A stretch of 64,000 nucleotides of DNA from Rariglobus hedericola. GTDB lineage: Bacteria > Verrucomicrobiota > Verrucomicrobiia > Opitutales > Opitutaceae. Below, piece after piece: positions 1,847 through 39,300 of the stretch (positions within the stretch are counted from its first letter, which is position 1; every line of letters starts with the position of its first letter). The notes below the pieces were generated by a model. That model was not told where the DNA came from. It ran no database searches and worked only from the letters and a program-made list of their open reading frames with translations. The position numbers were made by a program, and so were the translations under genes. The stretch lies in the NCBI RefSeq assembly GCF_007559335.1, contig NZ_VMBG01000003.1, positions 1 through 64,000 on the forward strand, read 5' to 3'.

Positions 1847-1857
1847 AAATATATAAA

Positions 1858-2432: not shown

Positions 2433-2438
2433 AAAAAT

Positions 2439-2849: not shown

Positions 2850-2854
2850 TGGAG

Positions 2855-2952: not shown

Positions 2953-2963
2953 AAAATAAAACC

Positions 2964-3179: not shown

Positions 3180-3188
3180 AACCACAGC

Positions 3189-3224: not shown

Positions 3225-3235
3225 AAAATTAAACC

Positions 3236-3742: not shown

Positions 3743-3800
3743 CCAGTCGATCTGTCAGGAGCCGCACGGTAGATGCAGACGCCAATTTAAACGTAACAAA

Positions 3801-3938: not shown

Positions 3939-3957
3939 GTGCCTCCAAAAACAATCC

Positions 3958-21247: not shown

Positions 21248-22075
21248 ATGGCTAATCTACAACTTTGGCAGCACCGGCCCCGCATCCAGCTCGCCATGAT
21301 CATGCCCCGTGCATCGAAGCGCAGCCTGCGTTACTGGGAGCACACCCATTCGTTTCACGAGATAGGATTTTTACTGGAGGGAGACTGCAACTGGCAGCTA
21401 GGCACCAAGCGCGAACGGCTCCACGCCGGAGATCTGTTGTTCGTGCCCGCCGGCACCAAGCATTACGAAAAGACACCTGCCGGCGCGAGTGCGCGCATCG
21501 GTTGGATCGGTTTCGATTTTGGTGATGAGATCGCCGAAATACCCGGGCCTCTGCGCGTGCCGCTCGCTTCCGGTGAATACAATGTGGAGCTCAAGCGTCT
21601 GTTTGAAACCGTGTTCGCCGAGCGGCAAAGCGACGCGCTCGCCCACGCTGAACGCGCCGAACTCGCCTTGCGCGAGATCTTGATTCTGCTGTGCCGTCTC
21701 CGTCCCGCCGGTGAAGCCATCAAGGCCAGTCGCGCACCGAAAACGCTGCGCGCCACCCAGCTGATGCGCTCCGCCGCCCTCACGCTTTGCTCGAATCTCG
21801 CGCAGCCGATGCGCATCCGTGACCTCGCGCACTATCACTCGTTGAGCTCCTCGCACTTTGCCCTGTTGTTTCGCCGCCATCAGGGAGAAACCCCGCGCCG
21901 CTTCCTCCAAAATGCCCGCCTGGCCCGGGCCAAGGTGCTCTTGAAAGAAGATGCGTTGAACGTGAAGGAGATCGCCGCCGCGTGCGGCTACGTCGATGCC
22001 GCGCACTTTTGCCACGCTTTCAAAGCAGCGACCAAGCTCACCCCGAAACACTTTCGCGAACGGAGCCGCGCCTGA
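21248..22075 (+). CDS. AraC-family transcriptional regulator
   Basis: A 275-residue regulator. The N-terminal cupin sensing domain (about residues 1-140) has HTHSFHEIGFLLEGDCNW, GDLLFVPAGTKHYEKT and WIGFDFG. The C-terminal double helix-turn-helix (about residues 175-273) has RIRDLAHYHSLSSSHFALLF as first HTH and NVKEIAAACGYVDAAHFCHAF as second, followed by the family ending TPKHFRER. It is divergent from the sugar-oxidoreductase fusion gene and probably controls it in response to a sugar. Confidence 0.9.
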   Translation: MANLQLWQHRPRIQLAMIMPRASKRSLRYWEHTHSFHEIGFLLEGDCNWQLGTKRERLHAGDLLFVPAGTKHYEKTPAGASARIGWIGFDFGDEIAEIPGPLRVPLASGEYNVELKRLFETVFAERQSDALAHAERAELALREILILLCRLRPAGEAIKASRAPKTLRATQLMRSAALTLCSNLAQPMRIRDLAHYHSLSSSHFALLFRRHQGETPRRFLQNARLARAKVLLKEDALNVKEIAAACGYVDAAHFCHAFKAATKLTPKHFRERSRA

Positions 22076-23195: not shown

Positions 23196-23990
23196 CTACT
23201 CGTCGAGTCGGCTCATCGTCTCCGTATCCTTGAGCGCCACGCCGCTCACGCCGAGTCGGGCTGATTCGATTAACAAATGGGCGAGTTTGCGCGCCGCGGC
23301 CAGCGGCGGAAGGCCCTCGGGCCGGATGTTCGAGACGCAATTGCGATCCGCATCGGTGCACGTCGCGCACGGATGATGCGTCAGGTAGGCTCCGAGGCTG
23401 TCCGGCATGCCGAGTCCGGGGCGTTCGCCGAGGAGCATGAGCGCATGACGCGCGCCGAGCAGCTCGCCCACCTCGTCCTGCAATTTTACGCGGCCATAAG
23501 GAGCCAGCAGAATCGGGTAAATCGTCCAGCCCGCCGCCCTGAGTTGACCGGCCAGCAACGTCACCGTCTCAACCGCATGGCGTTCCGCGGCCTGCGCCGC
23601 GAGTCCGTCGGAAACGATGATCACGAGATCTCGTTGTCCCCACGCAGGCGCGAGCGATTGCAGTTCAGACCGCGACGTATCCGCCAACCGTCGCCCTAGA
23701 TCGGGGCGCACGAGATAGGTTTTTTTGTCGGTCACCGCGGTGACAACACGCTGCGTGTCGAAGCCGGCTTTGACGAAACGCCCGGCAATGCCTTCACGAT
23801 CAAAAGGCGCCATGACCGCATCCCGCGCACGCGCGTGCGAAAGGCGGAAATCGAGCACCGTCTGCATGCGCTGGCTCCCGCCGGTGCGGCCCAGCGCGAT
23901 TCGCGCCGAGGTATACCGGCGCAGGCCCACCCACGGATCGCGGCCGGTATCGGCTGCGGGAACGATTACGGCGTCATCGGTGTTTTCCAT
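23196..23990 (-). CDS. eutC: Ethanolamine ammonia-lyase small subunit
   Basis: A 264-residue protein of the EutC family. EutC with EutB forms the adenosylcobalamin-dependent enzyme that converts ethanolamine to acetaldehyde and ammonia. Signatures are WVGLRRYTSARIALGRTGGS near the N-terminus, LDFRLSHARARDAV, VIIVSDGLAAQA, GERPGLGMPDSLGAYLTHHP with the B12-contact region, and NCVSNIRPEGLPP. The ATG at 23990 is preferred; the longer start at 24062 would overlap the preceding small gene. It is separated from eutB (28972-30357) by about 5 kb of unrelated genes, unlike the usual eutB-eutC pair. Confidence 0.93.
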   Translation of the reverse strand: MENTDDAVIVPAADTGRDPWVGLRRYTSARIALGRTGGSQRMQTVLDFRLSHARARDAVMAPFDREGIAGRFVKAGFDTQRVVTAVTDKKTYLVRPDLGRRLADTSRSELQSLAPAWGQRDLVIIVSDGLAAQAAERHAVETVTLLAGQLRAAGWTIYPILLAPYGRVKLQDEVGELLGARHALMLLGERPGLGMPDSLGAYLTHHPCATCTDADRNCVSNIRPEGLPPLAAARKLAHLLIESARLGVSGVALKDTETMSRLDE

Positions 23991-25550: not shown

Positions 25551-25577
25551 GAGCCGTCTTTCGACGGCTCTTTTTTT
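25551..25577 (+). terminator. Intrinsic terminator
   Basis: GAGCCGTC (25551-25558) and GACGGCTC (25563-25570) form an eight-base stem with a four-base loop, followed directly by seven T residues. It ends the transcript of the small basic protein gene. Confidence 0.9.
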
Positions 25578-25650
25578 GTGCCCGCGAACAGAGACGGTGC
25601 GAGTAGCGGCTTGCCCTCGGGGAGCATCTCGAAGACCAAACATCCCTACT

Positions 25651-26364
25651 ATGACGAGATCGTTCACTCCGCCTCCGGGCACTCACTGCATCCAGGTGGT
25701 CGGCAGCTTTGAAGAACTCGTTTCCACTCCGTTCACCGCAGGCGTCAACGCGCTCTGCTGGCCGCGCACGCTCGCGGGAAATTTTCAGGAGATCGTCGAT
25801 CAACTTGGACCGGTCGAGGAGATCACCAGCATCGACGAAGACGATCTGCGTGCGCTCACGTTGAGCCCGGACGGACAAATCGCGCGCGCGGTCCTGATCG
25901 AGGATCTGCGCTTGTTGCGCGAACACGAACTCGCGCCGGAGTTGAACTGCATTCCCGGTTACCCGAAGGACGACGAAGCCGGACCGGTGCCGACCGATGT
26001 GTATTCGTATCACGCGGACAGTGCGAATGTGGAGGCTTACACCTTTCTGTGCAGCTACACGGTGTCGTCGTCCGAAGGCCTGCGCCCCGAGGACGCCGTT
26101 CGCTGCGCCGATGTGCCCGAGACGCGCGCGAAGCTTTTAAAGGAATACGGCGGCGCGGATGACGCAGGCTTCGAAGTGTTCTTGAATGAGAATTTCTACG
26201 ACCTGCACTACGTCGCGAAACCCGGGACAGAGGCGTATACCTTCGGGTTGGGTAACCTGTGGCGCATCACGACTGACTGGCCCGGCAGCCCGGTGCCGCC
26301 GTGCGTGCATCGCGCACCGGTGCAACATCCCGGACAGCCACCGCGCCTGCTGATCATCAGCTGA
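25651..26364 (+). CDS. DUF1826-like protein, unknown function
   Basis: A 237-residue soluble protein. The N-terminal third has GVNALCWPRTLAGNFQEIVD. The middle has YSYHADSANVEAYTFLCSYT, and the end reads PCVHRAPVQHPGQPPRLLII. This order (a short GVN..W.R block, an H.D block, and a final VHR.P..RLL block) resembles DUF1826. The histidine and aspartate positions might hold a metal, but that is inference. The ATG at 25651 is chosen; an in-frame start at 25576 would lie in the terminator T-run. It is convergent with the symporter gene. Confidence 0.5.
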   Translation: MTRSFTPPPGTHCIQVVGSFEELVSTPFTAGVNALCWPRTLAGNFQEIVDQLGPVEEITSIDEDDLRALTLSPDGQIARAVLIEDLRLLREHELAPELNCIPGYPKDDEAGPVPTDVYSYHADSANVEAYTFLCSYTVSSSEGLRPEDAVRCADVPETRAKLLKEYGGADDAGFEVFLNENFYDLHYVAKPGTEAYTFGLGNLWRITTDWPGSPVPPCVHRAPVQHPGQPPRLLIIS

Positions 26365-26412: not shown

Positions 26413-28707
26413 TCAGTCCTGTTTCTCGTGGGTGCGTTCCTCGAAGATGGCCTTGTCGGCGACGGACACGTGTCCGTCCACCTGACCGTTGTCGAGGGGG
26501 TTGTCCACGCGGGCCTCCAGATCCTTGAAGAGGCGCTTCATATCGATGATGCCGCCGATCAGGAACCAGAAGGTGGAGACGATACCGACCACACCGGTGA
26601 CACACAGGCTCGTGATGAAGAAGTAGGTGCTCCACCACTCCGTCGGCCAGGGCGAGATCATGTTCCAGATTAGCACGGCGACGAAGCAGAGGCCGAACTT
26701 GTAAACGATGGCGTAGCCGACCACTGACCAGGCGATGATTTTGTCGCCGCGTGTATATTCCGGGGTGATGCCGACAAGGGCCTTGGCCACGTTACCAGGC
26801 GTCCACTTGAACGCCGGTTTGGCCTGACCTTCGACATCGTAAATGCCGCGATGAAGCAGGCGGTCGAGGTTGTAAGGAGTCTTGTAGGTGAGCAGTGATC
26901 CGACGACGTAGGCTACGATACCGGTGATCATCGACATGAAGTAGAGCTCGTAGGAATTGATGGGGAATTTAACCGCGTCCATCTGCCAGACGACGTAAGG
27001 ATGAAACGGAGAGGAAACCGTTTCAAGGAAGCGACCGAACGGCACATCCCAGCCCTGACCGTGGAGCCAAGGGTAAAGGTTGGACGCCCAGGTGCGCTGA
27101 ACGATGAGGCCGCCGATCGAGAGGCCGGAGCCAAAAATCAGTGAACAGAACGCGCCTGTCGTCGTGCCGAAGCGGCTGTAGAGACCGAAGATCATGATCG
27201 GGCCGGCACCGCCCAGCCACATGCCGGTCATGATCGTCGTGAACATGTTGATGTAGTCGAGCTGGACGAAGAACAGCGACACCACGAAGAAGAAAACGCA
27301 CACGGAGGTGGAGCAGAGGCGCAGGGCGAGGAGGTGCTGCTCCGGAGTGAATCCTTTTTTGCGCAGCGGCATCACGATGTCCTGAATGATCGTCGAGGAG
27401 GCGTTGAACACGCGGGAGTCGTCGGTGGACAACATCAGCATGATCATGAGCAAACAGAAGAGCCCCATGAGACCGACGGGGAGCAGGTTCTTGATGGCGA
27501 CCGGCAGCATCATCTGCTGGTAGAGCGTGCGGAATTTCTGGAACTGGACGTTGCCCTCGGGCGTGTTGCCCAGCGTCTCGCGGGCGGTCTGGAGATAAGG
27601 CGTGTCGATATTGTCCTGGCGTGAAAGCGGCGCATCCACACCGATTTGGTGCTGGGCCACCGGGAGCGCCGCGATGTTGGCGTCGAGCCGGGCGCGCAAC
27701 GCGGGATCAACGACCGCTTCAGCCGCGACTTGCTGCGTCAGCTGCTGCCGGATTTCGTGCGCCTGGTTGGAAAAGCTCCGGTGCGTCATCAGCGTGATGA
27801 TCATGACCGCGACCAGCAGCAGCATGAGGTTGGAGTAAAGGGTGCGCCAGGTGCCGAGAATGCCGGCCATCTTTTGCTCGTGCGGGGTGCGACCGCAGTT
27901 GGATGTGTCGTTGCCGATCCAACTGGCCCGGTTAAGGATGTTGCCCATGATCGTCACGACGAGGGCGAAGATGTTAAAGTCCCTCAGTTTCTCGATGTCG
28001 AAGGGGTTGATGAAATTCTCACCGTCAACGCGGTCCATCATCACCGGGGCGATGGTGTCGTGCCACCCGAAATGAAGGAAGATGTAACCGGCGATGATGA
28101 CGAAAATCGGGTAGCTGATGAGGCCCTGGAAGGCATCGGTGATCAGCAGCGAGATGCGGCCACCCGGCCAGATGACCAACATGCACAGAACCAGAGACGC
28201 ACCCACGAGCAGGGCGAACATCGGCAGCGCCAGACCGAAGATCATGATCTTGTGCGGCAGGCCGAGGAAATAGATGAAGAAGTTGGCCGCGATGGCCGGG
28301 CCGATCGCGTTGGTCAGCATTTCCGAAAGCGTGCGCAACGAGGCCGCCACGATGCGGAATTTGCGGTTGTAACGCATCTCGAGGAACTGGCCGATCGAAA
28401 GGGAGCGCGTCGCGCGGAAACGATAGACGCAGTAACCGGTCAGACTCATGGCAATGCCCACGGGGATCGTCAGGTATTCCCAAAACGAGAGCGCGTAGCC
28501 GACCTGATATTTCGATTCGACCAGCGCGACCAAGGCGATGACGCCGAGGCCGGAAGTCATGTCACCCGCCGAGAGCACGTAGCGGCCGGCCACGCGACCG
28601 GCGGCGAGGAAGTCCACCACACCGCGCACGTATTTTTTCGAATACACCGCGAGCCAGAGAATCAAAACCACAGGAACGATTACGATGAGCCAGTCGAGCC
28701 AATGCAT
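26413..28707 (-). CDS. Sodium:solute symporter family transporter
   Basis: A 764-residue SSS-family protein, longer than the usual 500-600 residues. The N-terminal half has the typical FLAAGRVAGRYVLSAGDMTS (Na+-site region) and SIGQFLEMRYNRKFRI. A hydrophilic insertion of about 100 residues (SNQAHEIRQQLTQQVAAEAV onwards) separates the helices near residue 330-440. About 13-15 membrane helices are visible. It should import an organic solute with Na+. The ATG at 28707 follows a 264-base gap, so it is not tightly coupled to eutB. It sits between eutB and eutC, which allows but does not prove an amine or alcohol substrate. Confidence 0.82.
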   Translation of the reverse strand: MHWLDWLIVIVPVVLILWLAVYSKKYVRGVVDFLAAGRVAGRYVLSAGDMTSGLGVIALVALVESKYQVGYALSFWEYLTIPVGIAMSLTGYCVYRFRATRSLSIGQFLEMRYNRKFRIVAASLRTLSEMLTNAIGPAIAANFFIYFLGLPHKIMIFGLALPMFALLVGASLVLCMLVIWPGGRISLLITDAFQGLISYPIFVIIAGYIFLHFGWHDTIAPVMMDRVDGENFINPFDIEKLRDFNIFALVVTIMGNILNRASWIGNDTSNCGRTPHEQKMAGILGTWRTLYSNLMLLLVAVMIITLMTHRSFSNQAHEIRQQLTQQVAAEAVVDPALRARLDANIAALPVAQHQIGVDAPLSRQDNIDTPYLQTARETLGNTPEGNVQFQKFRTLYQQMMLPVAIKNLLPVGLMGLFCLLMIMLMLSTDDSRVFNASSTIIQDIVMPLRKKGFTPEQHLLALRLCSTSVCVFFFVVSLFFVQLDYINMFTTIMTGMWLGGAGPIMIFGLYSRFGTTTGAFCSLIFGSGLSIGGLIVQRTWASNLYPWLHGQGWDVPFGRFLETVSSPFHPYVVWQMDAVKFPINSYELYFMSMITGIVAYVVGSLLTYKTPYNLDRLLHRGIYDVEGQAKPAFKWTPGNVAKALVGITPEYTRGDKIIAWSVVGYAIVYKFGLCFVAVLIWNMISPWPTEWWSTYFFITSLCVTGVVGIVSTFWFLIGGIIDMKRLFKDLEARVDNPLDNGQVDGHVSVADKAIFEERTHEKQD

Positions 28708-28971
28708 GGGGAGTTTACTGTGTAGGGTTATGCGACGAAGTTGCCAAAGTATCAGCAGGCCGTAAGCACCCATCGGGGCGCAACCCTTTTAAAGCATAGC
28801 AATCAAGACGATAAGACCGGGTGAAGCGCTGTATTCGAACGGCTGCGTGGCGGGCCTATGACCAGCACACGCGGAATCCGCGATTCACCTCTTTAGGGCT
28901 GACCTGAGATGCAGCCCCAGCGTTGTCGAAACGAAGGGCGCGAGGGATTCAACAACGCCAAAGAAAAGGGG

Positions 28972-30357
28972 TTACGCTGAGATCTTCGCGCTGGCGAGCA
29001 GTGCATGCTGGCCGGTGACGGGGAGAAGGCGGCGGCCGTCGCTCGCGATGCGCATTTTTTCGAGCCATTGCTCGAACTCAGGGGCGGGTTTTAGGCCGAG
29101 AACTTGGCGGAGATAGTGGCTGTCGTGAAATGAGGTAGATTGGTAACCGAGCATGATGTCGTCGGCGCCGGGGATGCCCATGATGAAGTTGCAGCCCGCC
29201 ACACCGAGGAGCGTGAGGAGGTTGTCCATGTCGTCCTGGTCGGCTTCGGCGTGGTTGGTGTAACACACATCCACGCCCATCGGTAGGCCGAGGAGTTTGC
29301 CGCAGCAGTGGTCTTCGAGGCCGGCGCGGATGATTTGTTTTCCGTCGTAGAGGTATTCCGGACCGATGAAGCCGACGACCGTGTTGACGAGGAGCGGTTT
29401 GAACGGACGCGCGACGGCGTAAGCGCGAACTTCGCAGGTCTGCTGGTCGAGTCCGTGATGCGCGCCGGCCGAGAGGCACGAGCCTTGGCCGGTTTCGAAA
29501 TACATGCAGTTGTCGCCGACCGTGCCGCGTTTGAGTGAGAGAGCGGCGGCGTGCGCCTCGGCGAGTAGCGCGAGGTTGATGCCGAAGCTTTTGTTGGCCG
29601 CCTCGGTGCCGGTGATGGATTGGAAAACGAGGTCGACGGGCGCTCCGCGTTGCATGGCCTGGAGCGCGGTCGTCACGTGGGCGAGGATGCAGGACTGCGT
29701 GGGGATTTCGTAGCGGTGGACGAGTTCGTCGATGAGACGGAGAAGCGTCTCCATCGCAGGCACGCTGTCGGTGGCCGGGTTGATGCCGATCACGGCGTCG
29801 CCGCAGCCGTAGAGGAGTCCGTCGAGGATCGAGGCGGCGATGCCCTGCGGGTCGTCGGTCGGGTGGTTGGGTTGGAGACGGACCGCGAGACGTCCTGGCA
29901 GGCCTATGGTCGATCGGAAGGCGGTGACGACGCGGCATTTTTTGGCGACGAGGATGAGGTCCTGGTTGCCCATGAGCTTCGACACGGCGGCGACCATTTC
30001 AGGCGTGAGACCGGGGGCGAGCGCGGTGAGGACGGTCGAATCGGTTTCGTAGCGGAGGAGCCAGTCGCGGAATTGGCCGACGGTCAGGCCGGCGATGGGC
30101 GCGAAGGCGGCGCGGTCGTGGCTGTCGATGATGAGGCGGGTGACCTCGTCGGCCTCGTAGGGAATGAGCAGGTCTTCGAGAAAGCGGGCGAGCGGGACAT
30201 CGGCGAGGCAGAGCTGGGCGGCGATGCGTTCCTCGGCAGACGCGGCGGCGACACCGGCAAGCACGTCGCCGGAACGGTGCGGCGTGGCCTTGGCCAGCAA
30301 CTCGGCGAGCGTGGCGAAGGTGTGGCGCGTGCGGCCGATGGTGGTCGCGAAACTCAT
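28972..30357 (-). CDS. eutB: Ethanolamine ammonia-lyase large subunit
   Basis: A 461-residue protein of normal EutB length. It forms the TIM-barrel catalytic subunit that binds ethanolamine and adenosylcobalamin. Family stretches include KLMGNQDLILVAKKCRVVTA, the segment NHPTDDPQGIAASILDGLLY, YGCGDAVIGINPATDS, FETGQGSCLSAGAHHGLDQQ, AVARPFKPLLVNTVVGFIGP and MGVDVCYTNHAEADQDDMDN. It is the last gene of a nine-gene operon and starts three bases after the kinase gene. The matching small subunit is at 23196. No eutA reactivase, acetaldehyde dehydrogenase or microcompartment shell gene is in the window. Confidence 0.95.
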   Translation of the reverse strand: MSFATTIGRTRHTFATLAELLAKATPHRSGDVLAGVAAASAEERIAAQLCLADVPLARFLEDLLIPYEADEVTRLIIDSHDRAAFAPIAGLTVGQFRDWLLRYETDSTVLTALAPGLTPEMVAAVSKLMGNQDLILVAKKCRVVTAFRSTIGLPGRLAVRLQPNHPTDDPQGIAASILDGLLYGCGDAVIGINPATDSVPAMETLLRLIDELVHRYEIPTQSCILAHVTTALQAMQRGAPVDLVFQSITGTEAANKSFGINLALLAEAHAAALSLKRGTVGDNCMYFETGQGSCLSAGAHHGLDQQTCEVRAYAVARPFKPLLVNTVVGFIGPEYLYDGKQIIRAGLEDHCCGKLLGLPMGVDVCYTNHAEADQDDMDNLLTLLGVAGCNFIMGIPGADDIMLGYQSTSFHDSHYLRQVLGLKPAPEFEQWLEKMRIASDGRRLLPVTGQHALLASAKISA

Positions 30358-30360
30358 GCG

Positions 30361-31395
30361 TCAGTTAAAGCGGGAAAGGTAGGCGTCGGCGAGGTCGCAG
30401 GTGTCGGTCGTGTATTTAGGGCCCATCGCCTGGGCTTGGGCGGTGTCGGCGTGGGAGCCGATCCAAGCGACGAGGAGCATGCGGCGGAGCATGATGAAAG
30501 TGGGGATTTCCGCGATTTCCTGTTTCGAGAGGCGGCGTTGGCGGGTGTAGCCGCCCAGCCACGCATCGATGTAGGCGGGGACGTCGGGGTGCGTTTCGAT
30601 GAAGCTCAACGCGGCGGCGAGGTCGTAGATGAACCAGGAGTGTCCGCAGTCGTCGAAGTCGATCACGGCGACTTGTCCGTCGTGGACGAGGAGGTTGGCG
30701 GCGCGGAGGTCGGCGTGGATGAGACCGAAGCGAGCGCGGTCGTAGCCGATTTTATCGACGCGGCGGCGGATGACGGGGAGGACGCGGGCGAGGTGTTTCT
30801 TTTTGGCGGGCGTCATGCCGAGGCCGTTTTCCCAGCGGCCCCAGTGTCCGGAGGGGCCGACCATGGTGTCGAAATCCCAGCGTTCGCGGAGGATGGGATG
30901 ATCGGGTTTCCAGCCGGCGGCGTGGCGGTGGAGTTGGGCGGTGACTTCGCCGAGGAGGGCGAAGGAAGCGAGGCGGTTGGTGTCGTCGGGCTCGGTGCCC
31001 TCGACGAATGTCATGAGGACGCAGTGACGAGGCTCAGGAACGGCGGGGTGCCAAACATGTTGGACGAGTTCGCCGTCGAGTCCAGGCAGCGGCTCGGCGG
31101 TGAGAATGGACGTATCGCGCTTGAGGGCGCGGACCCACGAGAGCTCGGTGGCGATGTAGTTGCGCGGGTGATACCCGGGGCGGTTGATGCGGAGGACGCG
31201 CCGCGGACCGGACGGCGGCGTGATGAGCCAGGTGGCGTTCTCGGAGTAGTTGAGAAGCTTGATCGCGGACGCAGGATGGAGTCCGAAGAGCGGGAGCGCC
31301 TGTCGGGCGAGTTGCTCGACGCGTCGGAGCTGGGCGCGCGTGGGCAGCGCGGAGAAAGCGGCGGGCGTGATCGGAGTTTTTAACGCAGAGGACAC
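30361..31395 (-). CDS. APH-fold small-molecule kinase, possibly an amino-alcohol kinase
   Basis: A 344-residue protein of the aminoglycoside-phosphotransferase / choline-kinase fold. The catalytic loop is FGLIHADLRAANLLV (aspartate in HAD, metal-binding N) and the metal site is VAVIDFDDCG. The N-terminal lobe has ENATWLI and RVLRINRPGYHPR (lysine-equivalent strand). The family includes homoserine, choline, ethanolamine and hydroxylysine kinases. Its position between a class III PLP enzyme and EutB suggests an amino-alcohol substrate. It lies 13 bases after the PLP gene and three bases before eutB. The substrate is an inference; the fold is secure. Confidence 0.75.
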   Translation of the reverse strand: MSSALKTPITPAAFSALPTRAQLRRVEQLARQALPLFGLHPASAIKLLNYSENATWLITPPSGPRRVLRINRPGYHPRNYIATELSWVRALKRDTSILTAEPLPGLDGELVQHVWHPAVPEPRHCVLMTFVEGTEPDDTNRLASFALLGEVTAQLHRHAAGWKPDHPILRERWDFDTMVGPSGHWGRWENGLGMTPAKKKHLARVLPVIRRRVDKIGYDRARFGLIHADLRAANLLVHDGQVAVIDFDDCGHSWFIYDLAAALSFIETHPDVPAYIDAWLGGYTRQRRLSKQEIAEIPTFIMLRRMLLVAWIGSHADTAQAQAMGPKYTTDTCDLADAYLSRFN

Positions 31396-31408
31396 GGAGG
31401 TCGCAGAG

Positions 31409-32683
31409 TTAGAAACTGGATGCGGCGGCGGAGATGCCGGCTTCGGTGAGGGTCAGGATTTCGTCGCAATCGGCGGGCGTAAGGAGGAGGCCGGGTTTGA
31501 ATTGGAGGACGCGCGGGTCGAGTTGCGAAAAAATCGCCCAGATGCCTTTCGCGTAGAGTTCGCGCATGACGATTTTCGCGCCTTCGGGGTGCGTGTTGAA
31601 CTCGAGGCCGAAGATCACACCGCGCTGGCGGATGCCCGTGAAGAAGGCGTGTTTTTTCTGAATGGTCTCGAGGCCGGCACGGAGTTTCGCGGCGATGGCG
31701 TCCACGTTGGCGATGGTCTCGGGGCGGAGGGTGATTTCGAGGGTCTTTAGGGCGGCGACGCAGCCGAGTTCGGAACCGCCAAAGGTGGAGATATGGCCCC
31801 AGCCGTCTTCGTTGAGCCAGCCGCCGCCGGCGGCGTTGGTGATGACGGCGCCGATGGGATAGAGGCCGCCGCTGAGGCCTTTGCTCGTGACAATGATGTC
31901 GGGCGTGACGCCGTAGCCGGTGATGCCCCAGAGGTTGCCGGAGCCGCAGCGCATGAGTCCGGTCTGGACTTCGTCGGCGACGTAGAGGGAGCCGTATTTT
32001 TCGCAGAGGGCTTTGACGGCGGGGAGGTAGCCGTCGGCGGGGAGCGGGAAACCGTAGGTCGCGGGGATGGTTTCCATGATGACGCAGGCGGCATCGCCGA
32101 GGGCGAGCGCGGCCTCCATGGCGGCGAGGTCGTTGAAGGGAACCTTGACGAATTCGTCGGGGCGACCGGCGCTCATGAATTGGTCGGCGTAGCGTCCGTC
32201 GGCGGTGCCGAGGGCGAGTCCGGTGTGGCCGTGGTAGGCTTTTTCGATGGAGATGATTTTGCGGCGCTTGGTTGCGTAGCGGGCGCACTTGAGGCCGATG
32301 TCGATGGCTTCGCCTCCGCCGCTGGAGAGGACGGCGTAGCGCATGTTGGACGGCGCGGTGGTGACGAGTTTTTTGGCGAGCGCGGCTCGGCCGATGGCGG
32401 GGAAATGGTGGTTCCCCATGTCGAAGTGATCGAGGGCCTCTTTGAGTTCGGCGATGATCTCGGCGTTACGATGGCCGAGGTTGTAGGTGCCGCCGTTGAG
32501 GTGGAGGTCGATCAGGCGGTGGCCCGACATGTCGTAGAGGTGGTAGCCTTCGCGACGGCCGATGACGAGGGGCGTGCCGCGTTGGGCCCAGGCGCGGACC
32601 TTGTCGGGGTTCCAGTATTTGGCGCTGTCGGCGAGGACGGCTTCCTTGGTTGCATTGAGGAGAGAGTCGATGAGGGCTGACAT
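31409..32683 (-). CDS. Class III PLP-dependent aminotransferase or amino-alcohol-phosphate lyase
   Basis: A 424-residue fold-type I PLP enzyme. Features are NGGTYNLGHRNAEI, SSGGGEAIDIGLKCAR, the segment EKAYHGHTGLALG with the aromatic PLP contact, ETIPATYGFPLP, YVADEVQTGLMRCG with the cofactor aspartate, and IVTSKGLSGGLYPIGAVI with the Schiff-base lysine. The class includes ornithine, putrescine and GABA aminotransferases and also ethanolamine-phosphate phospho-lyase. Because a kinase gene follows 13 bases downstream, phospho-lyase activity is a serious alternative. Sequence reading alone cannot separate the two. It starts three bases after the isochorismatase-type gene. Confidence 0.8.
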   Translation of the reverse strand: MSALIDSLLNATKEAVLADSAKYWNPDKVRAWAQRGTPLVIGRREGYHLYDMSGHRLIDLHLNGGTYNLGHRNAEIIAELKEALDHFDMGNHHFPAIGRAALAKKLVTTAPSNMRYAVLSSGGGEAIDIGLKCARYATKRRKIISIEKAYHGHTGLALGTADGRYADQFMSAGRPDEFVKVPFNDLAAMEAALALGDAACVIMETIPATYGFPLPADGYLPAVKALCEKYGSLYVADEVQTGLMRCGSGNLWGITGYGVTPDIIVTSKGLSGGLYPIGAVITNAAGGGWLNEDGWGHISTFGGSELGCVAALKTLEITLRPETIANVDAIAAKLRAGLETIQKKHAFFTGIRQRGVIFGLEFNTHPEGAKIVMRELYAKGIWAIFSQLDPRVLQFKPGLLLTPADCDEILTLTEAGISAAASSF

Positions 32684-32686
32684 AAA

Positions 32687-33388
32687 TTAGGCGGGGTTGA
32701 GGGCTGAAAGCGTTTCGTCGGTGGTGAGGACCTGGCAGTAGATGTTGTTGATGATGGTGAGCTCGGCGCGGTGGAGTTCGTCGGTCGCGGCGGCGCAGGC
32801 GTCGTCCACGACGATCACGTTGAAACTTTCGTCGGCGAGGGAGCGCACGGTGCTGGCGACGCACTGGTCGGTGAAGATGCCGCAGACGACGACATTGCGG
32901 ATGCCTAGATTGGATAGGAGCAGGCGGAGGTTGGTGCCGGTGAGCGCGCTATCGGTGGTTTTGGTGATGACGATTTCGTCGGCGAGCGGGGCGACTTGCG
33001 GGAGGATTTGGGAATCGGCGCCAATGTGCGGGAGGAGGAGGTTGTTGAAGCCGGGACGGGCGTGACTGAGGGATCGGTCGCGGCCGTCCTTGGTAAGGCA
33101 GGCGATGCGAACGAAGAGGACTTCGCGTTGGGTGCCGCGGAAATGCGCGAGGAGGCGTTGCGTGGCGGGGAGCACGGTGCCGGTCATGCGTTCGCGGAAA
33201 GGCGCCCAGCGGTGCCACTCGGCGATGTCGGCGGGCGTGGCGTGAGGCGGCGTGGCCTCGGGCAGGTAGGCGACTTGAAGGTCGATCACAAGCAGCGCGG
33301 TTTTCTCCGGGTCGAGGACGATGTCGGGGATATCATCCCCGTTCATGGTTTCGTAGTAGAAAGATCGATACGCGGTGCGCCAGCTCAT
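32687..33388 (-). CDS. Isochorismatase-family cysteine hydrolase
   Basis: A 233-residue alpha/beta hydrolase of the isochorismatase/nicotinamidase superfamily. The catalytic triad is apparent: aspartate in TALLVIDLQVAYL, lysine in EIVITKTTDSALTG, and cysteine in VVVCGIFTDQCVASTVRSLA. Members split amide or carbamoyl bonds (nicotinamide, N-carbamoyl compounds, ureidoacrylate, biuret). An amide-cleaving step ahead of the aminotransferase and ammonia-lyase would fit this operon, for example releasing an amino alcohol from an N-acyl or N-carbamoyl precursor. That substrate is inferred. It is 11 bases downstream of the SDR gene. Confidence 0.85.
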   Translation of the reverse strand: MSWRTAYRSFYYETMNGDDIPDIVLDPEKTALLVIDLQVAYLPEATPPHATPADIAEWHRWAPFRERMTGTVLPATQRLLAHFRGTQREVLFVRIACLTKDGRDRSLSHARPGFNNLLLPHIGADSQILPQVAPLADEIVITKTTDSALTGTNLRLLLSNLGIRNVVVCGIFTDQCVASTVRSLADESFNVIVVDDACAAATDELHRAELTIINNIYCQVLTTDETLSALNPA

Positions 33389-33399
33389 GGTGATTTTGC

Positions 33400-34176
33400 T
33401 CAGGCGGTGAGCGCGGCGGGGGACTCGGGGAGAATCTGGCCACCGTCCACGGTGATGGTTTGGCCGGTGATGTAGTTGGCTTCGGCGGAGGCGAGGAAGG
33501 CGGCGGCGTGGCCGATGTCTTCAACGGTGCCGAGTTTGCCGAGCGGGACGCAGGCGGCGGTGGCGGCGATGTAGTCGGCGCCCATGCCGATCAGGCCTTC
33601 GGTAAGAATGTTGCCGGGAAGGACGGCGTTGATGGTGATGTTATCCTTGGCGAATTCGATGGCGGCAGTGCGGAGGAAACCAAGTTGGGCGGCTTTGGTG
33701 GCGCCGTAGTGCGACCAGCCGGGAAAGCCGGTGATCGGGCCGGTGATTGAGGACGTGAGGACGATGCGGGGCGCGGTGCTCTTTTTGAGATGCGGGAGGC
33801 ACGCTTGGATCGAGAGGAACATGCTTTTCACGTTGGTCGCGAAAATGCCGTCCCACGCCTCTTCAGTCATGTCGGCGAACTTGAGCGCGGGGAAGGCCCC
33901 GGCGTTGGCGCAGAGGACGTCGATGCCGCCGTAGAGCGACACGGCGGTCGCGGCCATGTGATCGACGCCGGCGCGGGTCGCGACATCGGCTTGGCAGAAG
34001 GCGACGGTGCCGCCGGCGGCGATGAGTTCGGCGACGGTCGCCTCGCCTTCGGACGTGGTGCGGGCGACGACGAGGACTTTGGCACCGTGTTGCGCGAAGA
34101 TGCGGGCAATGCCTTTGCCGATGCCTTTGCTGCCACCGGTGACGATGACTGATTTGTTTTTGAGGGAGGCTGACAT
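33400..34176 (-). CDS. Short-chain dehydrogenase/reductase
   Basis: A 258-residue classical SDR. The cofactor motif is VTGGSKGIGKGIAR, the structural motif is CANAGAFP, and the catalytic residues are the serine in VLTSSITGP and the YGATK tetrad (tyrosine and lysine). The end ASAEANYITGQTITVDGG is typical of the FabG-like group. It should oxidise an alcohol or reduce a ketone with NAD(P)H in the cytoplasm. It is the first enzyme gene after the transporter genes, 48 bases from the permease. The substrate is unknown. Confidence 0.88.
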   Translation of the reverse strand: MSASLKNKSVIVTGGSKGIGKGIARIFAQHGAKVLVVARTTSEGEATVAELIAAGGTVAFCQADVATRAGVDHMAATAVSLYGGIDVLCANAGAFPALKFADMTEEAWDGIFATNVKSMFLSIQACLPHLKKSTAPRIVLTSSITGPITGFPGWSHYGATKAAQLGFLRTAAIEFAKDNITINAVLPGNILTEGLIGMGADYIAATAACVPLGKLGTVEDIGHAAAFLASAEANYITGQTITVDGGQILPESPAALTA

Positions 34177-34224
34177 GGGGAGATTTTTTAGACGAAACAG
34201 CGCGGCCGTTCCGCTACGGGACGG

Positions 34225-35043
34225 TCAATGCGACGAGGTGGAGTGGCGGGACTTGCGGGTGCTCCAGCGGACAATGGCGAAGAGGGCGATCACGAGGATG
34301 ATGGCGACGCCGACGTTGATGACGCCGACTGCGGGAACCATCGGTTGATAACCGCTGGTCATACGGGCGTAGAGCCACTCGGGCAGCGCGCTGTCGGCAC
34401 CGGTTGTGTAGAGCGAGAGGGCGAAATTACCCCACGAGAGCAGCACGGCAAAACACGTGGCGCTGATCATGCCGGGGAGCAGAAGCGGGATGGTGATCTT
34501 GCGCATAATCTGCCAGCGGGTCGCGCCCATGTCGCGGGCGGCTTCTTCGAGCGATTCGTCGAGTCCGTAGGCTTGGATCGAGATGATCAGCGTGGTAATG
34601 GGCGCGATCCACACGGTGTGCGCGATGGCGGCGGTCCACCAGGCGGTGGTGACGTCGAGGAAGCTAAACCACATGAGCAGGGCGAGTCCGAGCACCGACT
34701 GGGGAAAGAAGAGCGGCAGAAGCACGAGGCGCTGGAACGTCTGGCGTCCGCGCCAGCGGTAGCGGGCGTAGGCGAGCGCGGAGAAAAAGCCGATGGCAAC
34801 CGAGGCGACGGCGGTGATGCCGGCGATGCGCAAACTCACGCCGACGAAATCATGAACCTGCGGAGAGTTGATCGCATCGTTATACCATTTAAACGTCATG
34901 TCGTCCGACGTGTAAGGAAAGGAGAAGAAGCGCTTCTTGGAGAGCGAGGCGACGATGATGCAGAAGACGGGGAAGTAGAACACGAGCAGCACGAGGCCCG
35001 CGTAAAAACTGAAACCGGTTTTCTGGGTGCGAGTGACAATCAT
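34225..35043 (-). CDS. ABC importer permease, PotC-like
   Basis: A 272-residue permease with six helices. The cytoplasmic EAA loop, which docks the ATPase, reads ESLEEAARDMGATRWQIMRK and continues with ITIPLLLPG. The N-terminal helix and the pattern KWYNDAINSPQVHD (the PotC/PotI-type WY..al.d.) point to the spermidine/putrescine branch of importers. It pairs with the permease encoded 13 bases upstream. Relatives import polyamines, GABA, or other cationic amines; the solute here is unproven. Confidence 0.88.
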   Translation of the reverse strand: MIVTRTQKTGFSFYAGLVLLVFYFPVFCIIVASLSKKRFFSFPYTSDDMTFKWYNDAINSPQVHDFVGVSLRIAGITAVASVAIGFFSALAYARYRWRGRQTFQRLVLLPLFFPQSVLGLALLMWFSFLDVTTAWWTAAIAHTVWIAPITTLIISIQAYGLDESLEEAARDMGATRWQIMRKITIPLLLPGMISATCFAVLLSWGNFALSLYTTGADSALPEWLYARMTSGYQPMVPAVGVINVGVAIILVIALFAIVRWSTRKSRHSTSSH

Positions 35044-35056
35044 GGTGTGTGACGGG

Positions 35057-35959
35057 TCATTCGGACGGTTTTTTGCCGAGGAGTTTTTCGAGGTCGAAGC
35101 GGCTGAGCGCGAAGAAGACGACCACGGTGGTCAGCGCGATGAACATCGTCGAAAGCGCGGATCCGAGCGGCCAGTTTTGCGCGTAGGTGAACTCGGACTC
35201 GATGTCGGAGGCGATGGTGACAACCTTTTGTCCGCCGAGGATTTTTGCCTCGGAAATCGCGCCGACCGAAAGCACGAACACGAGCAGCGAGCCAATCATC
35301 ACGCCGGGCATGGCGAGCGGGAGGTCAATTTTTTTGAAGACCTGCCAGCGGCTCGCGCCGAGATCGAAGGCGGCTTCACGGACTTGGTCGGGCACCATCT
35401 TCACACCGAGCACGAGCGGAAAGAGCATGAACGGCAGATAAACGTAAACCATGCCGAGAATGATCACCGGGATGTTATAGAGCAGGGAGTCGATCTGGAG
35501 CCCTAAGACCTTGGAAAGCGTGCCGCCAACCACACCGTTTTTCATGAAGCCGATGACCCAGCCGAAAAGGCGGATATTTTCGGAAACGAAAAGCGAGGTC
35601 GCGATGGCGTAGGTGATGAAACTCGCGGCACCCCTGAAGATCTTGGCCATGGCAAAGGCCAGAGGGAAACAGATGACGAGCAGGATGACGACGGTAACGG
35701 AGGCGAGGCCGAGCGACCAGAGGGCGGATTTGAAATACGTCTGGTTGAAAATCGTCTGGTAGTTTTCGAGGGTCGGTGCCTGCAGAAGACTGAAGGTTTT
35801 CGGCGGCATGAATCCGAACCACACGACGCAGAGGAGAGGCGCGACGAAACCGAACAACATGAGCAACGCAAACGGCGAGGCGGAGAGCGCGCCGATGAGA
35901 CCGGGCAGGCGCTCAAGCAGCCGTGGCTTTTGCGGAGTGACTGGAGACGCGTCGCTCAT
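35057..35959 (-). CDS. ABC importer permease, PotB-like
   Basis: A 300-residue permease with six helices. The EAA loop is EAAFDLGASRWQVFKKIDLP followed by LAMPGV. The early helix is followed by SLLQAPTLENYQTIFNQTYF, the usual ENY motif of PotB-like proteins. The start codon overlaps the ATPase stop by four bases, indicating translational coupling. It forms the membrane channel with the PotC-like permease. Confidence 0.88.
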   Translation of the reverse strand: MSDASPVTPQKPRLLERLPGLIGALSASPFALLMLFGFVAPLLCVVWFGFMPPKTFSLLQAPTLENYQTIFNQTYFKSALWSLGLASVTVVILLVICFPLAFAMAKIFRGAASFITYAIATSLFVSENIRLFGWVIGFMKNGVVGGTLSKVLGLQIDSLLYNIPVIILGMVYVYLPFMLFPLVLGVKMVPDQVREAAFDLGASRWQVFKKIDLPLAMPGVMIGSLLVFVLSVGAISEAKILGGQKVVTIASDIESEFTYAQNWPLGSALSTMFIALTTVVVFFALSRFDLEKLLGKKPSE

Positions 35960-37029
35960 GATTCGAGGATCTGACTGTCAGCAAGGTCCCAGCCGAGGAT
36001 GGTGTCGGTGCCAGAGGCGCGCTCTTCGCGGAGACGCTCGACGGTGAGCGTGCAACCAGGGACCACTTCGACGTGATATTGGACACGCGAGCCAAGGGAG
36101 AACTGGTTGAGGATGCGCACGGGCACGGTGTTGCCAGCGGTCTCGCCGGGGTCGATGAAACGGAGCGATTCAGGACGGATGAGCAGCTTGCGCTTCGTGC
36201 CGGCGTCGAGCGGTGCAGGCAGGTTGAGCACGAGCGGCTTGCGACCGGTATCCCATTCGGCGGTGGTGCCGCCGGAGGCGGTGATATCCAGGAGGTTCAC
36301 TTCGCCCATGAACTCGGCGACGAAGGCGTTTTTGGGAGAAGCGTAGATTTCGTCGGGTTGGCCGATCTGCTCGATCATGCCGGCGCGGAGAATAGCGACG
36401 CGGTCGCTCATGACCATCGCCTCTTCGAGCGAATGGGTGACGTAGCAGAAGGTCTTTTTGGTGCTGCGCTGGATGTCCTTGAGTTCCTTCTGAAGTGTTT
36501 TGCGCAGGCGGGCGTCCAAGGCAGAAAGCGGTTCGTCGAAGAAAAGGATGTCGGGGTCGTAGGCCAGCGCGCGGGCAAGGGCGACGCGCTGGCGTTCGCC
36601 ACCGGAGCACTGGGTGACGTTTTTGTCGTAGTAGCGGTTGGGATCGAGGTGGAGGAGCTTGAGCAACTCCCAGGCTCGCGTGCGGCGCTCGCTCTCACGC
36701 TCACCGCGGATCGCGAGCGGAAACTCGACGTTTTTGCCCACGGTCATGTGAGGGAAAAGGGCGAGCGACTGGAAGACCATGCAGGTCGGGCGCTTGTTGG
36801 GCGCGAGGTCATTGACGATTTTCCCCCGTAGACGAAGTTCGCCCGTAGTGGGTTTTTCCATACCCACCAACATGCGGAGAAGCGTGGTCTTTCCGCTGCC
36901 GCTGGGGCCGACGAGCGTGAAGAACTCGCCGTCGGCAATCTTGAAACTGACGTCATTGACGGCGGTGAATTTTCCGAAGCGCTTGGTGACGTTGGCGACT
37001 TCTAGTATGGGCGTGGCGGAATCATCCAT
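35956..37029 (-). CDS. ABC importer ATPase, PotA-like
   Basis: A 357-residue ATPase. Walker A is LVGPSGSGKTTLLRML, the signature is QCSGGERQRVALARAL, Walker B is ILFFDEPLSALD and the H-loop is YVTHSLEEA. A C-terminal TOBE domain follows (about residues 280-355, RKLLIRPESLRF). The ATG at 37029 (MDDSATPILEV) is preferred to starts at 37059 and 37104. It drives the PotBC-like permeases and overlaps the next gene by four bases. Confidence 0.9.
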   Translation of the reverse strand: MDDSATPILEVANVTKRFGKFTAVNDVSFKIADGEFFTLVGPSGSGKTTLLRMLVGMEKPTTGELRLRGKIVNDLAPNKRPTCMVFQSLALFPHMTVGKNVEFPLAIRGERESERRTRAWELLKLLHLDPNRYYDKNVTQCSGGERQRVALARALAYDPDILFFDEPLSALDARLRKTLQKELKDIQRSTKKTFCYVTHSLEEAMVMSDRVAILRAGMIEQIGQPDEIYASPKNAFVAEFMGEVNLLDITASGGTTAEWDTGRKPLVLNLPAPLDAGTKRKLLIRPESLRFIDPGETAGNTVPVRILNQFSLGSRVQYHVEVVPGCTLTVERLREERASGTDTILGWDLADSQILES

Positions 37030-37123
37030 GATCGGGCGATAGGTGCAGGCGGGAGTCATCCGCAGGCCGCGTCGAAAAGAGCGGCAGCCTGCGGAAGGAA
37101 ACAAACAACAGGAGGCCAGGAAC

Positions 37124-38305
37124 TCAGCCCTCGCGAGTGCGCTTGGCCTCGTTGTAGATCGAGGTGAGCAGGTCGTTGTCGGGCACGACTTGGTAATCGA
37201 CGCTGCGCGTCATATCGGCCTCGAGCGTGTCCCACTGGAAGCAGTTGAGTTCGTCTTTCTTGAACTTGGCGAAGACCTCGGGCTGCGACATCTGGGTGAC
37301 GGGATTATGCGAAGCCTCGGCCATGGCGACGGTATGGCAGATGTCGGGACGCTGCACGTATTCGAGGAAGTCCTCGGCGAGCGGGCTGACGTCGGGATTG
37401 TTGACGACTGATGTGACCTCGAACCACTGGAGCGAACCCTTGCCGCCCTCGAGCGGTCCCCTTAGCGGCGAGACGTGATAGACCTCGCTGAAGCCTTCCT
37501 TGCGGGCGACGGAGCACGTGTAGGTGCCGCCGCTGTAGATGGCGTCGATCTCGCCGTTGATGAGCGCCTGGTTGAGCTGGGCGGGATCGCCGCCGATCAT
37601 CTTGGCGTTGGCGAAGAGAGTTTGCGCGGTCTTTTTGAAGAGCTCGACCTCCTCGGGCGTGTGCATCTTGTAGGGCGAGAAACCGGCGGTGATACACATG
37701 TGCATCACGTTCCAGTTGTCCCACGCGAGCAGGCCGTATTTGCCCTTCATTTTCGGATCGAGGAACATGGGCAGGCCTTGGTCCTCGGCGGTCTTGACGG
37801 AAATTTTCTTGGTATTGACGACAAAGTTCATCGGGCCGAAGCGCTGCATCATGCCGATGAGTTCCTTGCCGTCGGGCGAGAGGGCAAAGGGGTTAATACC
37901 CATCGTCTTGTTATAGAACATGGGCATCATCTTTTCGATGTAGGGCTCGAAGCGCTTACGATCGAGCGGCTTGATGAGCTTCTCCTTCCACATCTGCTCG
38001 CGGGCCCAGCATTGGTTGAGATTGATCAGGTCCCAGACCTTGATTTCGCCGGCGCGGAGCTTGTTGATCATGCTCGGATCGTCGGTGCCGGACTCGGCTT
38101 TCAAACTGAGCCCCTTGTGCATGCCACGGAAAGGATTCAGGACGTTGTCACTGTTGTAGCCCTCCCAGCAGAGAATGTTGAGCTCCTTGTCGCGCTTGCT
38201 GGCGGCAAACGAGGTGGAGGGCAGGGAGGTGAAGGCAAGGCCGGCGGCGGCGGTGCCGGCGATTTTCATGAAATCGCGGCGGTTGTAGTTGTGCGTTGTA
38301 TTCAT
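37124..38305 (-). CDS. Periplasmic substrate-binding protein, PotD-like, Tat-exported
   Basis: A 393-residue binding protein. The ATG at 38305 gives a twin-arginine signal (NRRDFMKIAGTAAAGLAFTS), implying export in the folded state. The mature region starts LNILCWEGYNSDNVL, the hallmark of the PotD/PotF family (l.i..W.gY....v). Other segments are WDLINLNQCWAREQMW, NPFALSPDGKEL and GEIDAIYSGGTYTCS. It is the first gene of the amine operon, and the LysR gene diverges from it. Its ligand probably resembles a small amine, but residues that fix polyamine binding cannot be assigned by eye. Confidence 0.88.
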   Translation of the reverse strand: MNTTHNYNRRDFMKIAGTAAAGLAFTSLPSTSFAASKRDKELNILCWEGYNSDNVLNPFRGMHKGLSLKAESGTDDPSMINKLRAGEIKVWDLINLNQCWAREQMWKEKLIKPLDRKRFEPYIEKMMPMFYNKTMGINPFALSPDGKELIGMMQRFGPMNFVVNTKKISVKTAEDQGLPMFLDPKMKGKYGLLAWDNWNVMHMCITAGFSPYKMHTPEEVELFKKTAQTLFANAKMIGGDPAQLNQALINGEIDAIYSGGTYTCSVARKEGFSEVYHVSPLRGPLEGGKGSLQWFEVTSVVNNPDVSPLAEDFLEYVQRPDICHTVAMAEASHNPVTQMSQPEVFAKFKKDELNCFQWDTLEADMTRSVDYQVVPDNDLLTSIYNEAKRTREG

Positions 38306-38378: not shown

Positions 38379-38393
38379 ATAGATGCCATCTAT
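38379..38393. promoter_or_regulatory. LysR-type T-N11-A operator overlapping the regulator start
   Basis: ATAGATGCCATCTAT is a perfect 15-base palindrome containing T-N11-A. It lies between the divergent operon and LysR gene, and it contains the ATG (38383) at which the LysR gene would start. Nearby, CTATACTC occurs twice (38368-38375 and 38390-38397). Confidence 0.55.
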
Positions 38394-39300
38394 ACTCAAT
38401 CATGCCGTCGAATTGCGGCACCTCCTTTACTTCCAGGCACTGGCGCAACACGGGAGTTTCACGCGCGCGGCCGCGGTGATCGGCCTGCGGCAGCCGACGC
38501 TTTCACAGCAAATTCACCAAATGGAAAAGGCGCTCGGCGTGCCGCTGTTCGACCGCGCACGGAGGCGCTGCCGCCTTACCTCGGCGGGCGAAATGCTGCT
38601 GCCTTACGTGCGCCGCGTGCTCGCGGAAATGGAAAACCTGCGGAGCTCGCTGGACGACCTTAGTGATTTGAAACGAGGTTCGCTCACCGTGGCGGTGCTG
38701 CCCTCGGTCACTCATCAGTTACTGCCGCTCGCGCTGGAAAAATTCCATGAAGATTACTCCGGTATCCAAGTCCGGATACTTGAGATGTCGGTCGACGAGA
38801 TGGAGCGCGCGCTCGTGATGGGCACGGTGGAGCTGGGGATCGGCCATACGCCCCCAGCCGAGACCAGCCTGAGGCACCAATCGCTTTATGCCGAGGAACT
38901 GGTAGCGGTGGTGGCCACTTCCGACCGGCTGGCACGGCGGGAATCCGCCACAATGGAAGAAATCAGCACGCGTCCGCTGCTGGTGCCGCCGCCCGGCTAC
39001 GGCACGCGAACCCTGCTGTTAAAGGCCTTCGCCAAGGTCCGGCGCACCCCGAACTTCGCGTTGGAACTCAGCTCGGTCGACATGCTGCTGCACATGGTGG
39101 CGGCGGGCAGCGGACTGGGCATCGTGCCGTCGTCGGCATTGTGGGGCCGCGTCGCCAAAGACTACGCCGTGGTGCGGATCATCCGCCCCACCCCTAAGCG
39201 CCAGATCGGTTTTCTGACGTTACATGGCGTTCACACGCGGCCGGCGGCCGAGGCGTTTATCCCGATCGTGCGCGCAGTGGCAAAAAACCTCGGCGAGTAA
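38383..39300 (+). CDS. LysR-family transcriptional regulator of the amine operon
   Basis: A 305-residue LysR protein. The winged helix-turn-helix occupies residues about 10-70 (LRHLLYFQALAQHGSFTRAA and TLSQQIHQMEKALGVPLFDR). The effector domain of about 210 residues follows (GSLTVAVLPSVTHQLLPLAL). It is divergent from the PotD-like gene, 77 bases away, so it almost certainly controls the nine-gene operon and itself. The start may be the ATG at 38383, inside the operator palindrome, or a TTG at 38413 that would begin with the standard RHL.YF. The likely effector is the imported amine or a product of it. Confidence 0.87.
   Translation: MPSILNHAVELRHLLYFQALAQHGSFTRAAAVIGLRQPTLSQQIHQMEKALGVPLFDRARRRCRLTSAGEMLLPYVRRVLAEMENLRSSLDDLSDLKRGSLTVAVLPSVTHQLLPLALEKFHEDYSGIQVRILEMSVDEMERALVMGTVELGIGHTPPAETSLRHQSLYAEELVAVVATSDRLARRESATMEEISTRPLLVPPPGYGTRTLLLKAFAKVRRTPNFALELSSVDMLLHMVAAGSGLGIVPSSALWGRVAKDYAVVRIIRPTPKRQIGFLTLHGVHTRPAAEAFIPIVRAVAKNLGE

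Follow-up and report, generated by a model that had tools for sequence, protein, structure and literature searches.

The closest described relatives of the gene cluster studied here are the RMM/AAU/Aut microcompartments of Mycobacterium smegmatis and Rhodococcus erythropolis, which bring together a short-chain dehydrogenase/reductase (SDR), a kinase and a class III enzyme dependent on pyridoxal phosphate (PLP). Enzymes of the same three families are encoded in an operon of Rariglobus hedericola (Verrucomicrobiota, Opitutaceae), which lies in a stretch of 64,000 nucleotides (positions 1 to 64,000 of contig NZ_VMBG01000003.1; hereafter the window). Unlike the microcompartment loci, the operon has neither shell genes nor an aldehyde dehydrogenase gene, and it adds a PotDABC importer, a probable amidase and ethanolamine ammonia-lyase (EutBC). 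Its parts are largely known; what is unusual is their arrangement, the shell-less enzyme set being joined to these three additions, and no description of a shell-less, PotDABC-linked operon from Verrucomicrobiota was found in the titles and abstract openings of the open-licence literature.

For the aminopropanol microcompartment, it seems not to be settled which reaction the class III enzyme catalyses, transamination or phosphate elimination by a phospho-lyase. A 2018 paper on the kinase reportedly proposed a phospho-lyase. The reference list of PMC8007038 includes papers on two enzymes of the M. smegmatis microcompartment, an (S)-1-amino-2-propanol kinase and an S-(+)-1-amino-2-propanol dehydrogenase, and PMC6620236, which deals with the Aut microcompartment, has the class III enzyme AutA as a proposed aminotransferase and the kinase AutD as forming phospholactate. 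A second group of class III enzymes, the ethanolamine-phosphate phospho-lyases (ETNPPL; solved structures 5g4i and 6tor), shares the class III PLP fold with the R. hedericola enzyme; relatives of ETNPPL occur beside the same kinase family, and the two enzymes probably share a reaction type. The natural exchange of one for the other within an otherwise common gene set yields a directly checkable prediction, namely that both are interchangeable phospho-lyases. Moreover, although its aldehyde is reactive, the pathway is encoded here with no shell, and its tie to an importer and an amide hydrolase points to an amide-linked amino alcohol as a nutrient.

Structure of the operon and proposed pathway

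The operon occupies positions 38305 to 28972 of the minus strand, and its nine genes, in the order given in the preliminary description, are borne out by open reading frames (ORFs) and by Pfam and NCBIfam matches. It begins with a PotD-like substrate-binding protein with a Tat-type signal (37124..38305), recognised by its profile and fold match to the solved structure 7xjm, and continues with a PotA-like ABC ATPase (35956..37029, the ATG at 37029 being taken as the start of an ORF that opens at 37104), a PotB-like permease (35057..35959) and a PotC-like permease (34225..35043), all three assigned from Pfam and NCBIfam. Next come an SDR of the aminopropanol dehydrogenase group (33400..34176; E 4e-91 to 3pk0, E 6e-81 to 6ci8); an isochorismatase-fold cysteine hydrolase and probable amidase, here termed ISO (32687..33388; PF00857, E 1e-32); the class III PLP enzyme, a proposed phospho-lyase here termed AT3 (31409..32683; sharing about 62% identity with its class III counterpart in shell loci of the aminopropanol type); an APH-fold amino-alcohol kinase with an uncertain GTG start (30361..31395; PF01636, E 1e-23); and EutB, the large subunit of ethanolamine ammonia-lyase (28972..30357; PF06751, E 1e-220; NCBIfam PRK15067 above cut-off). 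From PotD to EutB the intergenic gaps are 94, -4, 13, 48, 11, 3, 13 and 3 bases, in keeping with the earlier statement that none exceeds 94 bases and that several measure 3-13 bases or overlap (there is one overlap, of 4 bases).

We consider it rather likely that these genes encode a shell-less aminoacetone/1-amino-2-propanol pathway with its own importer. PotDABC would import an amine or an amide conjugate, and ISO, in which the catalytic triad is present, would free the amine from its amide. The SDR would interconvert aminoacetone and 1-amino-2-propanol and the kinase would phosphorylate the latter, as homology to solved mycobacterial microcompartment enzymes suggests; AT3 with PLP would then eliminate phosphate and ammonia to give propionaldehyde, a step suggested mainly by gene context and by the exchange of phospho-lyase families discussed below. 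In one group of Opitutaceae, EutBC with adenosylcobalamin would convert ethanolamine to acetaldehyde as a second branch. Homology and gene context lend support to three earlier proposals: an amino-alcohol operon, a phosphorylation/PLP-lyase route alongside the B12-dependent lyase, and a substrate linked through an amide (further amide hydrolases are encoded by some relatives). The system first cited for comparison, ethanolamine-phosphate lyase with its kinase, gives way to the 1-amino-2-propanol/aminoacetone pathway, which is closer, AT3 falling outside the ETNPPL clade. The SDR had been correctly listed, but without the role that its membership of the aminopropanol dehydrogenase group now suggests.

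The enzyme set in other genomes

A scan with an AT3 alignment gave at least 545 relatives, of which the best-scoring 80 were taken, each with its neighbourhood of up to 10 kb on either side and with SDRs counted at an identity of at least 50%; proportions among these AT3 loci are consequently valid for close relatives only. The related loci are referred to by L numbers. Kinase genes are present in 69 of the 80, SDR genes in 67, shell genes in 51 and aldehyde dehydrogenase genes in 48. PotD (9), ISO (9), EutB (6) and EutC (4) are rare, and the rarity of PotD, ISO and EutC serves as an internal yardstick for genes of the window's operon that stand outside the common set. When only the 53 loci that span at least 19.9 kb are considered, the kinase is found in 52, the SDR in 51 and a shell gene in 42. 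The distance between kinase and AT3 is at most 300 bases in 40 of the 69 kinase-bearing loci; of the 11 loci from which the kinase is missing, ten span less than 14 kb, and the eleventh, L087, extends 10 kb to either side. Five phyla are represented among the loci (Verrucomicrobiota, Bacillota, Actinomycetota, Pseudomonadota and Spirochaetota), besides a metagenome-assembled genome (MAG) labelled Sphingobacterium.

The SDR, kinase and AT3 of R. hedericola are 55, 38 and 62% identical, respectively, to those of a Mycobacterium aquaticum shell locus (L055), and AT3 is likewise about 62% identical to the class III enzymes of Mycolicibacterium and Nocardioides shell loci. The kinase has a single strong solved relative, 6ef6 (E 1.4e-67; runner-up 1.6e-19), and this match, together with its position in the tree, places it in the aminopropanol kinase family; solved matches of the SDR are 3pk0, 3rih and 6ci8/6ci9. 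The counterparts from L055 match 6ef6 with E 8e-170 (kinase) and 6ci8 with E 3e-147 (SDR). These two structures, 6ef6 and 6ci8, we take to belong to the M. smegmatis kinase and dehydrogenase papers mentioned above. To judge from sequence relationships, the enzyme set around AT3 is the aminoacetone/1-amino-2-propanol set. As regards a shell, the 99.99% complete R. hedericola genome contains no match to the shell protein family PF00936 (PF03319 was not searched genome-wide), and no CoA-acylating aldehyde dehydrogenase is encoded in the operon. On plasmid pRHL2 of Rhodococcus jostii RHA1 (L005, 2558-8047), duplicated shell genes stand beside the kinase gene, and the class III enzyme there is of the ETNPPL family, not AT3.

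Within the Verrucomicrobiota the order PotD-A-B-C-SDR-ISO-AT3-kinase is constant in 11 loci (window, L009, L017-L023, L034 and L088), up to the contig ends, which argues that the arrangement is not due to chance. The position of EutB can be tested in the eight Verrucomicrobiota loci whose sequence extends well past the kinase: it follows the kinase in four (window, L017, L019, L020), all of them close relatives, and in none of the other four (L009, L022, L023, L034). The simplest reading is that EutB is a late addition in one branch of Opitutaceae. The preliminary description was right to place EutB in the operon of the window, but this placement extends to only half of the testable loci, and the partner subunit had been overlooked. 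EutC, the small subunit (23196..23990, minus strand; PF05985, E 2e-81; NCBIfam PRK05465 above cut-off), is encoded on the same strand about 5 kb beyond EutB and is the sole PF05985 match in the genome; EutB is thus not an orphan. The two genes adjoin each other in L020, and EutC was not seen in the ~3.8 kb following EutB in L019. Among 288 genomes drawn from the phylum, two contain the kinase (E <= 1e-30) and the same two contain AT3 (E <= 1e-120), one of them being the window's own, a distribution that fits joint horizontal transfer. In L022, the immediate neighbour of the LysR gene that accompanies the Pot-type operon is an ORF (2624-3466) partially similar to a bacterial microcompartment shell protein.

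The reaction of the class III enzyme

AT3 is 24-27% identical to five members of the ETNPPL clade, which also contains 5g4i and 6tor; in the tree, AT3 and ETNPPL form separate clades, that of AT3 being fully supported, and 6tor ranks only 46th among the solved matches of the AT3 profile. A phospho-lyase assignment by family membership was accordingly rejected, since AT3 lies outside the ETNPPL clade, and the claim is kept on gene context alone. This context comprises above all the pAt operon of Agrobacterium fabrum C58 (ATU_RS25065-25115), whose importer, SDR, ISO and kinase are 42-60% identical to those of the window and in which an ETNPPL-family enzyme (5g4i, E 1e-105; 6tor, E 1e-95) occupies the place of AT3. 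In the kinase tree, the A. fabrum sequence falls into a supported group with two kinases linked to AT3, those of L053 and L067 (99/89 and 100/99). Because the PLP partner has been exchanged and the kinase kept, both class III lineages are most simply read as catalysing the same reaction, and AT3 probably functions as a phospho-lyase. In 14 kinase loci compared, an ETNPPL-family enzyme is present in 11, AT3 in one, and only other class III enzymes in two; these plasmid counts are small and the sample is non-random (13 loci stem from a kinase-search list of 88 records and L012 from the AT3 search), and three of the 11 loci (L004, L106, L108) are close Agrobacterium relatives.

All 85 AT3 sequences aligned have T209 and Q394 where the transaminase YgjG has Glu and Arg, a pair which in 2-oxoglutarate-type class III transaminases binds the 2-oxo acid. 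At the same positions, seven members of the ETNPPL clade have Thr, Ser, Cys or Asn, plus Lys.

Several observations weigh against the phospho-lyase assignment. By both profile and fold, the nearest solved relative of AT3 is YgjG, a true transaminase. Diverse class III enzymes came up in the fold search, with YgjG first, and the search does not separate lyases from transaminases; that no ETNPPL entry stands among the 50 matches listed in either case excludes nothing. The Glu/Arg pair is also missing from two class III enzymes of L038 (control frames of at least 300 amino acids with less than 40% identity to the reference rows) and from three rhizobial ones. The missing pair was rejected as proof of a lyase after these controls; it would count, weakly, only against a 2-oxoglutarate transaminase, leaving other transaminases possible. 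Finally, the neighbours of AT3 in L084 and L087 are ethanolamine-type operons that encode shell proteins, EutB and EutC. No kinase gene occurs in either stretch, which for L087 covers 10 kb on both sides of AT3; in these loci AT3 either draws on phosphoethanolamine made elsewhere or does not act as a lyase. In these two Bacillaceae loci (L084, 951-12732; L087, 9184-21237) an apparent DeoR-type regulator gene precedes AT3. Other AT3 relatives, on Phyllobacterium and Mesorhizobium plasmids (L010, 8706-12121; L011, 8706-11242), are preceded by genes for a peptide-type ABC importer and a member of the alkaline phosphatase family; L010 continues with DUF1045 and PhnF genes, a hint that the substrate is a phosphonate or a phosphodiester.

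A broader proposal may be advanced tentatively, as one with a real though uncertain prospect of being correct. Class III phospho-lyases of amino-alcohol phosphates would then have arisen as two separate lineages, AT3 being the second and able to stand in for the ETNPPL family beside the same kinase; this would decide how the aminopropanol microcompartment works, and the shell-less operon would harvest amide-bound 1-amino-2-propanol, possibly from breakdown products of cobamides.

Substrate, alternative readings and neighbouring genes

The importer comprises all four PotABCD components, and its binding protein has a PotD fold, with a model pLDDT of only 60. The match of this protein to 7xjm (VcPotD1) has a profile E of 2e-4 and, from the same low-confidence model, a fold E of 1.6e-11. 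Its identity to the solved polyamine receptors listed is 12-17%, from which no ligand can be inferred, and a search with the single sequence gave no match at E 0.01.

Isochorismatase-fold cysteine hydrolases employ an Asp-Lys-Cys catalytic triad, and the corresponding D36, K143 and C176 are invariant in ISO and the two relatives aligned with it (3/3), to which it is 61 and 68% identical. Other amide hydrolases recur around the same genes: in Agrobacterium a CbiZ gene follows ISO (L108; PF01955, E 5e-33 in CG920), accompanied in CG920 by a family S58 peptidase, and genes for such a peptidase are found in L004, L108 and six AT3 loci. Their recurrence and variety suggest that the amino alcohol is bound as an amide. 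The annotation of CbiZ is adenosylcobinamide amidohydrolase, which cleaves cobinamide at its aminopropanol amide, and a cobamide is a possible source of the amide; tblastn detected CbiZ neither in the window nor in L009 nor in the 80 AT3 loci. The A. fabrum pAt operon and its relatives resemble the window in importer, SDR, ISO and kinase and differ from it in having the ETNPPL-family enzyme for AT3, the CbiZ gene (annotated in CG920) and the S58 peptidase, and in lacking EutB in the stretch examined. Close relatives of ISO in rhizobia (L013, 3836-11997; L014, 3830-11987; L016, 3840-11998) are accompanied by an N-formylglutamate amidohydrolase, a second isochorismatase-fold hydrolase, a branched-chain-type ABC importer and another class III enzyme.

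EutB and EutC together provide the two subunits of ethanolamine ammonia-lyase, and a PduO-type adenosyltransferase that could serve them is encoded in the genome. Compared with eut systems, the genome yields no match to the shell protein family PF00936, no EutA that passes the cut-off and no EutE-like dehydrogenase, and its EutB and EutC lie 5 kb apart. Genome matches to PF00171 comprise methylmalonate-semialdehyde dehydrogenase (MMSDH), a succinate-semialdehyde type and a weak match provisionally read as ProA; none is EutE-like. MMSDH is the only CoA-acylating type among them and adjoins genes read as pyrimidine catabolism. With no dedicated aldehyde dehydrogenase in the operon and MMSDH elsewhere as the sole CoA-acylating candidate, ammonia may be the main gain, and nitrogen supply is, as the safer guess, a likelier role than carbon supply.

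To the difficulties already noted for AT3, others must be added that concern the pathway as a whole. Rhizobial relatives of ISO occur with other partners and without the kinase, and ISO is missing from L106 and from the examined part of L067. The SDR is nearer to 3pk0, for which no function is stated, than to 6ci8, and its assignment as an aminopropanol dehydrogenase therefore holds at the family level only. EutA is represented in the genome by nothing more than a weak partial match (23.1 against a cut-off of 27 bits), and single-family searches of the genome returned no methylmalonyl-CoA mutase, PrpD or CobS, so that the use of propionaldehyde carbon and the upkeep of EutBC are in doubt. The same searches found neither a cobalamin riboswitch nor CobA.

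Among the alternatives, AT3 might be a transaminase, as published for the Aut microcompartment: it would make lactaldehyde from 1-amino-2-propanol, or else use a diamine delivered by the importer, with the kinase working on a later intermediate. We regard this as unlikely, because an ETNPPL-family enzyme replaces AT3 in the Agrobacterium operon and because the Glu/Arg pair of YgjG is absent throughout the AT3 alignment, the latter point being tempered by the five other class III enzymes that lack it too. The PotD fold of the binding protein and the YgjG-like character of AT3 would also agree with polyamine import and degradation, in which AT3 would be a putrescine transaminase and the kinase would be unrelated; given the low identity of the binding protein to the listed polyamine receptors, the lack of a match in the single-sequence search, and the company that kinase and SDR keep with AT3 also where no such importer is seen (PotD in 9 of the 80 loci), we deem such a function very improbable.

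A further alternative makes ethanolamine the main substrate, to be converted to acetaldehyde both by kinase and AT3, independently of B12, and by EutBC, dependent on it. Consistent with this, EutBC accompanies AT3 in L025, L084 and L087, and on a plasmid of Moraxella osloensis CCUG 350 (L110) it occurs with the kinase and an ETNPPL-family enzyme; in L007 the kinase has an annotated ethanolamine permease gene as its neighbour; and, neither CobS nor a cobalamin riboswitch having been found in the genome, a B12-free route would be useful when B12 is scarce. The Bacillaceae MAG locus L025 contains AT3, kinase, EutB, EutC, an ethanolamine-permease-like gene and, read by eye, an EutA-like gene, with no SDR of the aminopropanol dehydrogenase group. 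Yet the SDR, which has no evident role in ethanolamine use, is present in 67 of the 80 AT3 loci, the best solved relative of the kinase is an aminopropanol kinase, and half of the testable Verrucomicrobiota loci have no EutB after the kinase; an ethanolamine pathway in the first place thus also seems to us unlikely. The same half-and-half distribution, limited to close relatives, together with the distance of 5 kb to EutC in the window and the failure to see EutC in the ~3.8 kb after EutB in L019, could mean that EutB is a passenger unlinked to the other enzymes. This, too, we consider unlikely, as EutB and EutC are adjacent in L020 and as EutBC is joined by AT3 and kinase in L025, and by SDR and kinase on the L110 plasmid. 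The Moraxella cluster resembles the window in combining EutBC, SDR and kinase of the same families, and is unlike it in having an ETNPPL-family enzyme plus a second class III enzyme, an APC permease and two aldehyde dehydrogenases, one of them a CoA-acylating MMSDH.

Divergent from the operon, a LysR-type gene (38383..39300, plus strand) probably encodes its regulator; a homologue (53-83% identity) is similarly placed in L019, L020, L022 and L023. Downstream, 198 bases after EutB, a co-directional sodium/solute symporter gene follows (26413..28773, minus strand; PF00474, E 2e-7), whose membership of the system is unsure; no homologue was picked up in L019 or L020. This gene and two on the opposite strand separate EutB from EutC, and between EutC and the symporter lies an ORF of 262 amino acids (25576-26364, plus strand) for which neither Pfam nor NCBIfam gives a match at E 0.001. 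Farther away, an ORF at 19119-21137 (minus strand) encodes a MocA-type oxidoreductase fused to an aldo/keto reductase. A tRNA-Leu(gag) called by ARAGORN at 21495-21577 (plus strand) falls inside an AraC-family gene (21248-22075) and is probably a false call. The G+C content is 0.46-0.47 at positions 1-4000 of the window, against about 0.57-0.66 elsewhere, which may indicate foreign DNA.

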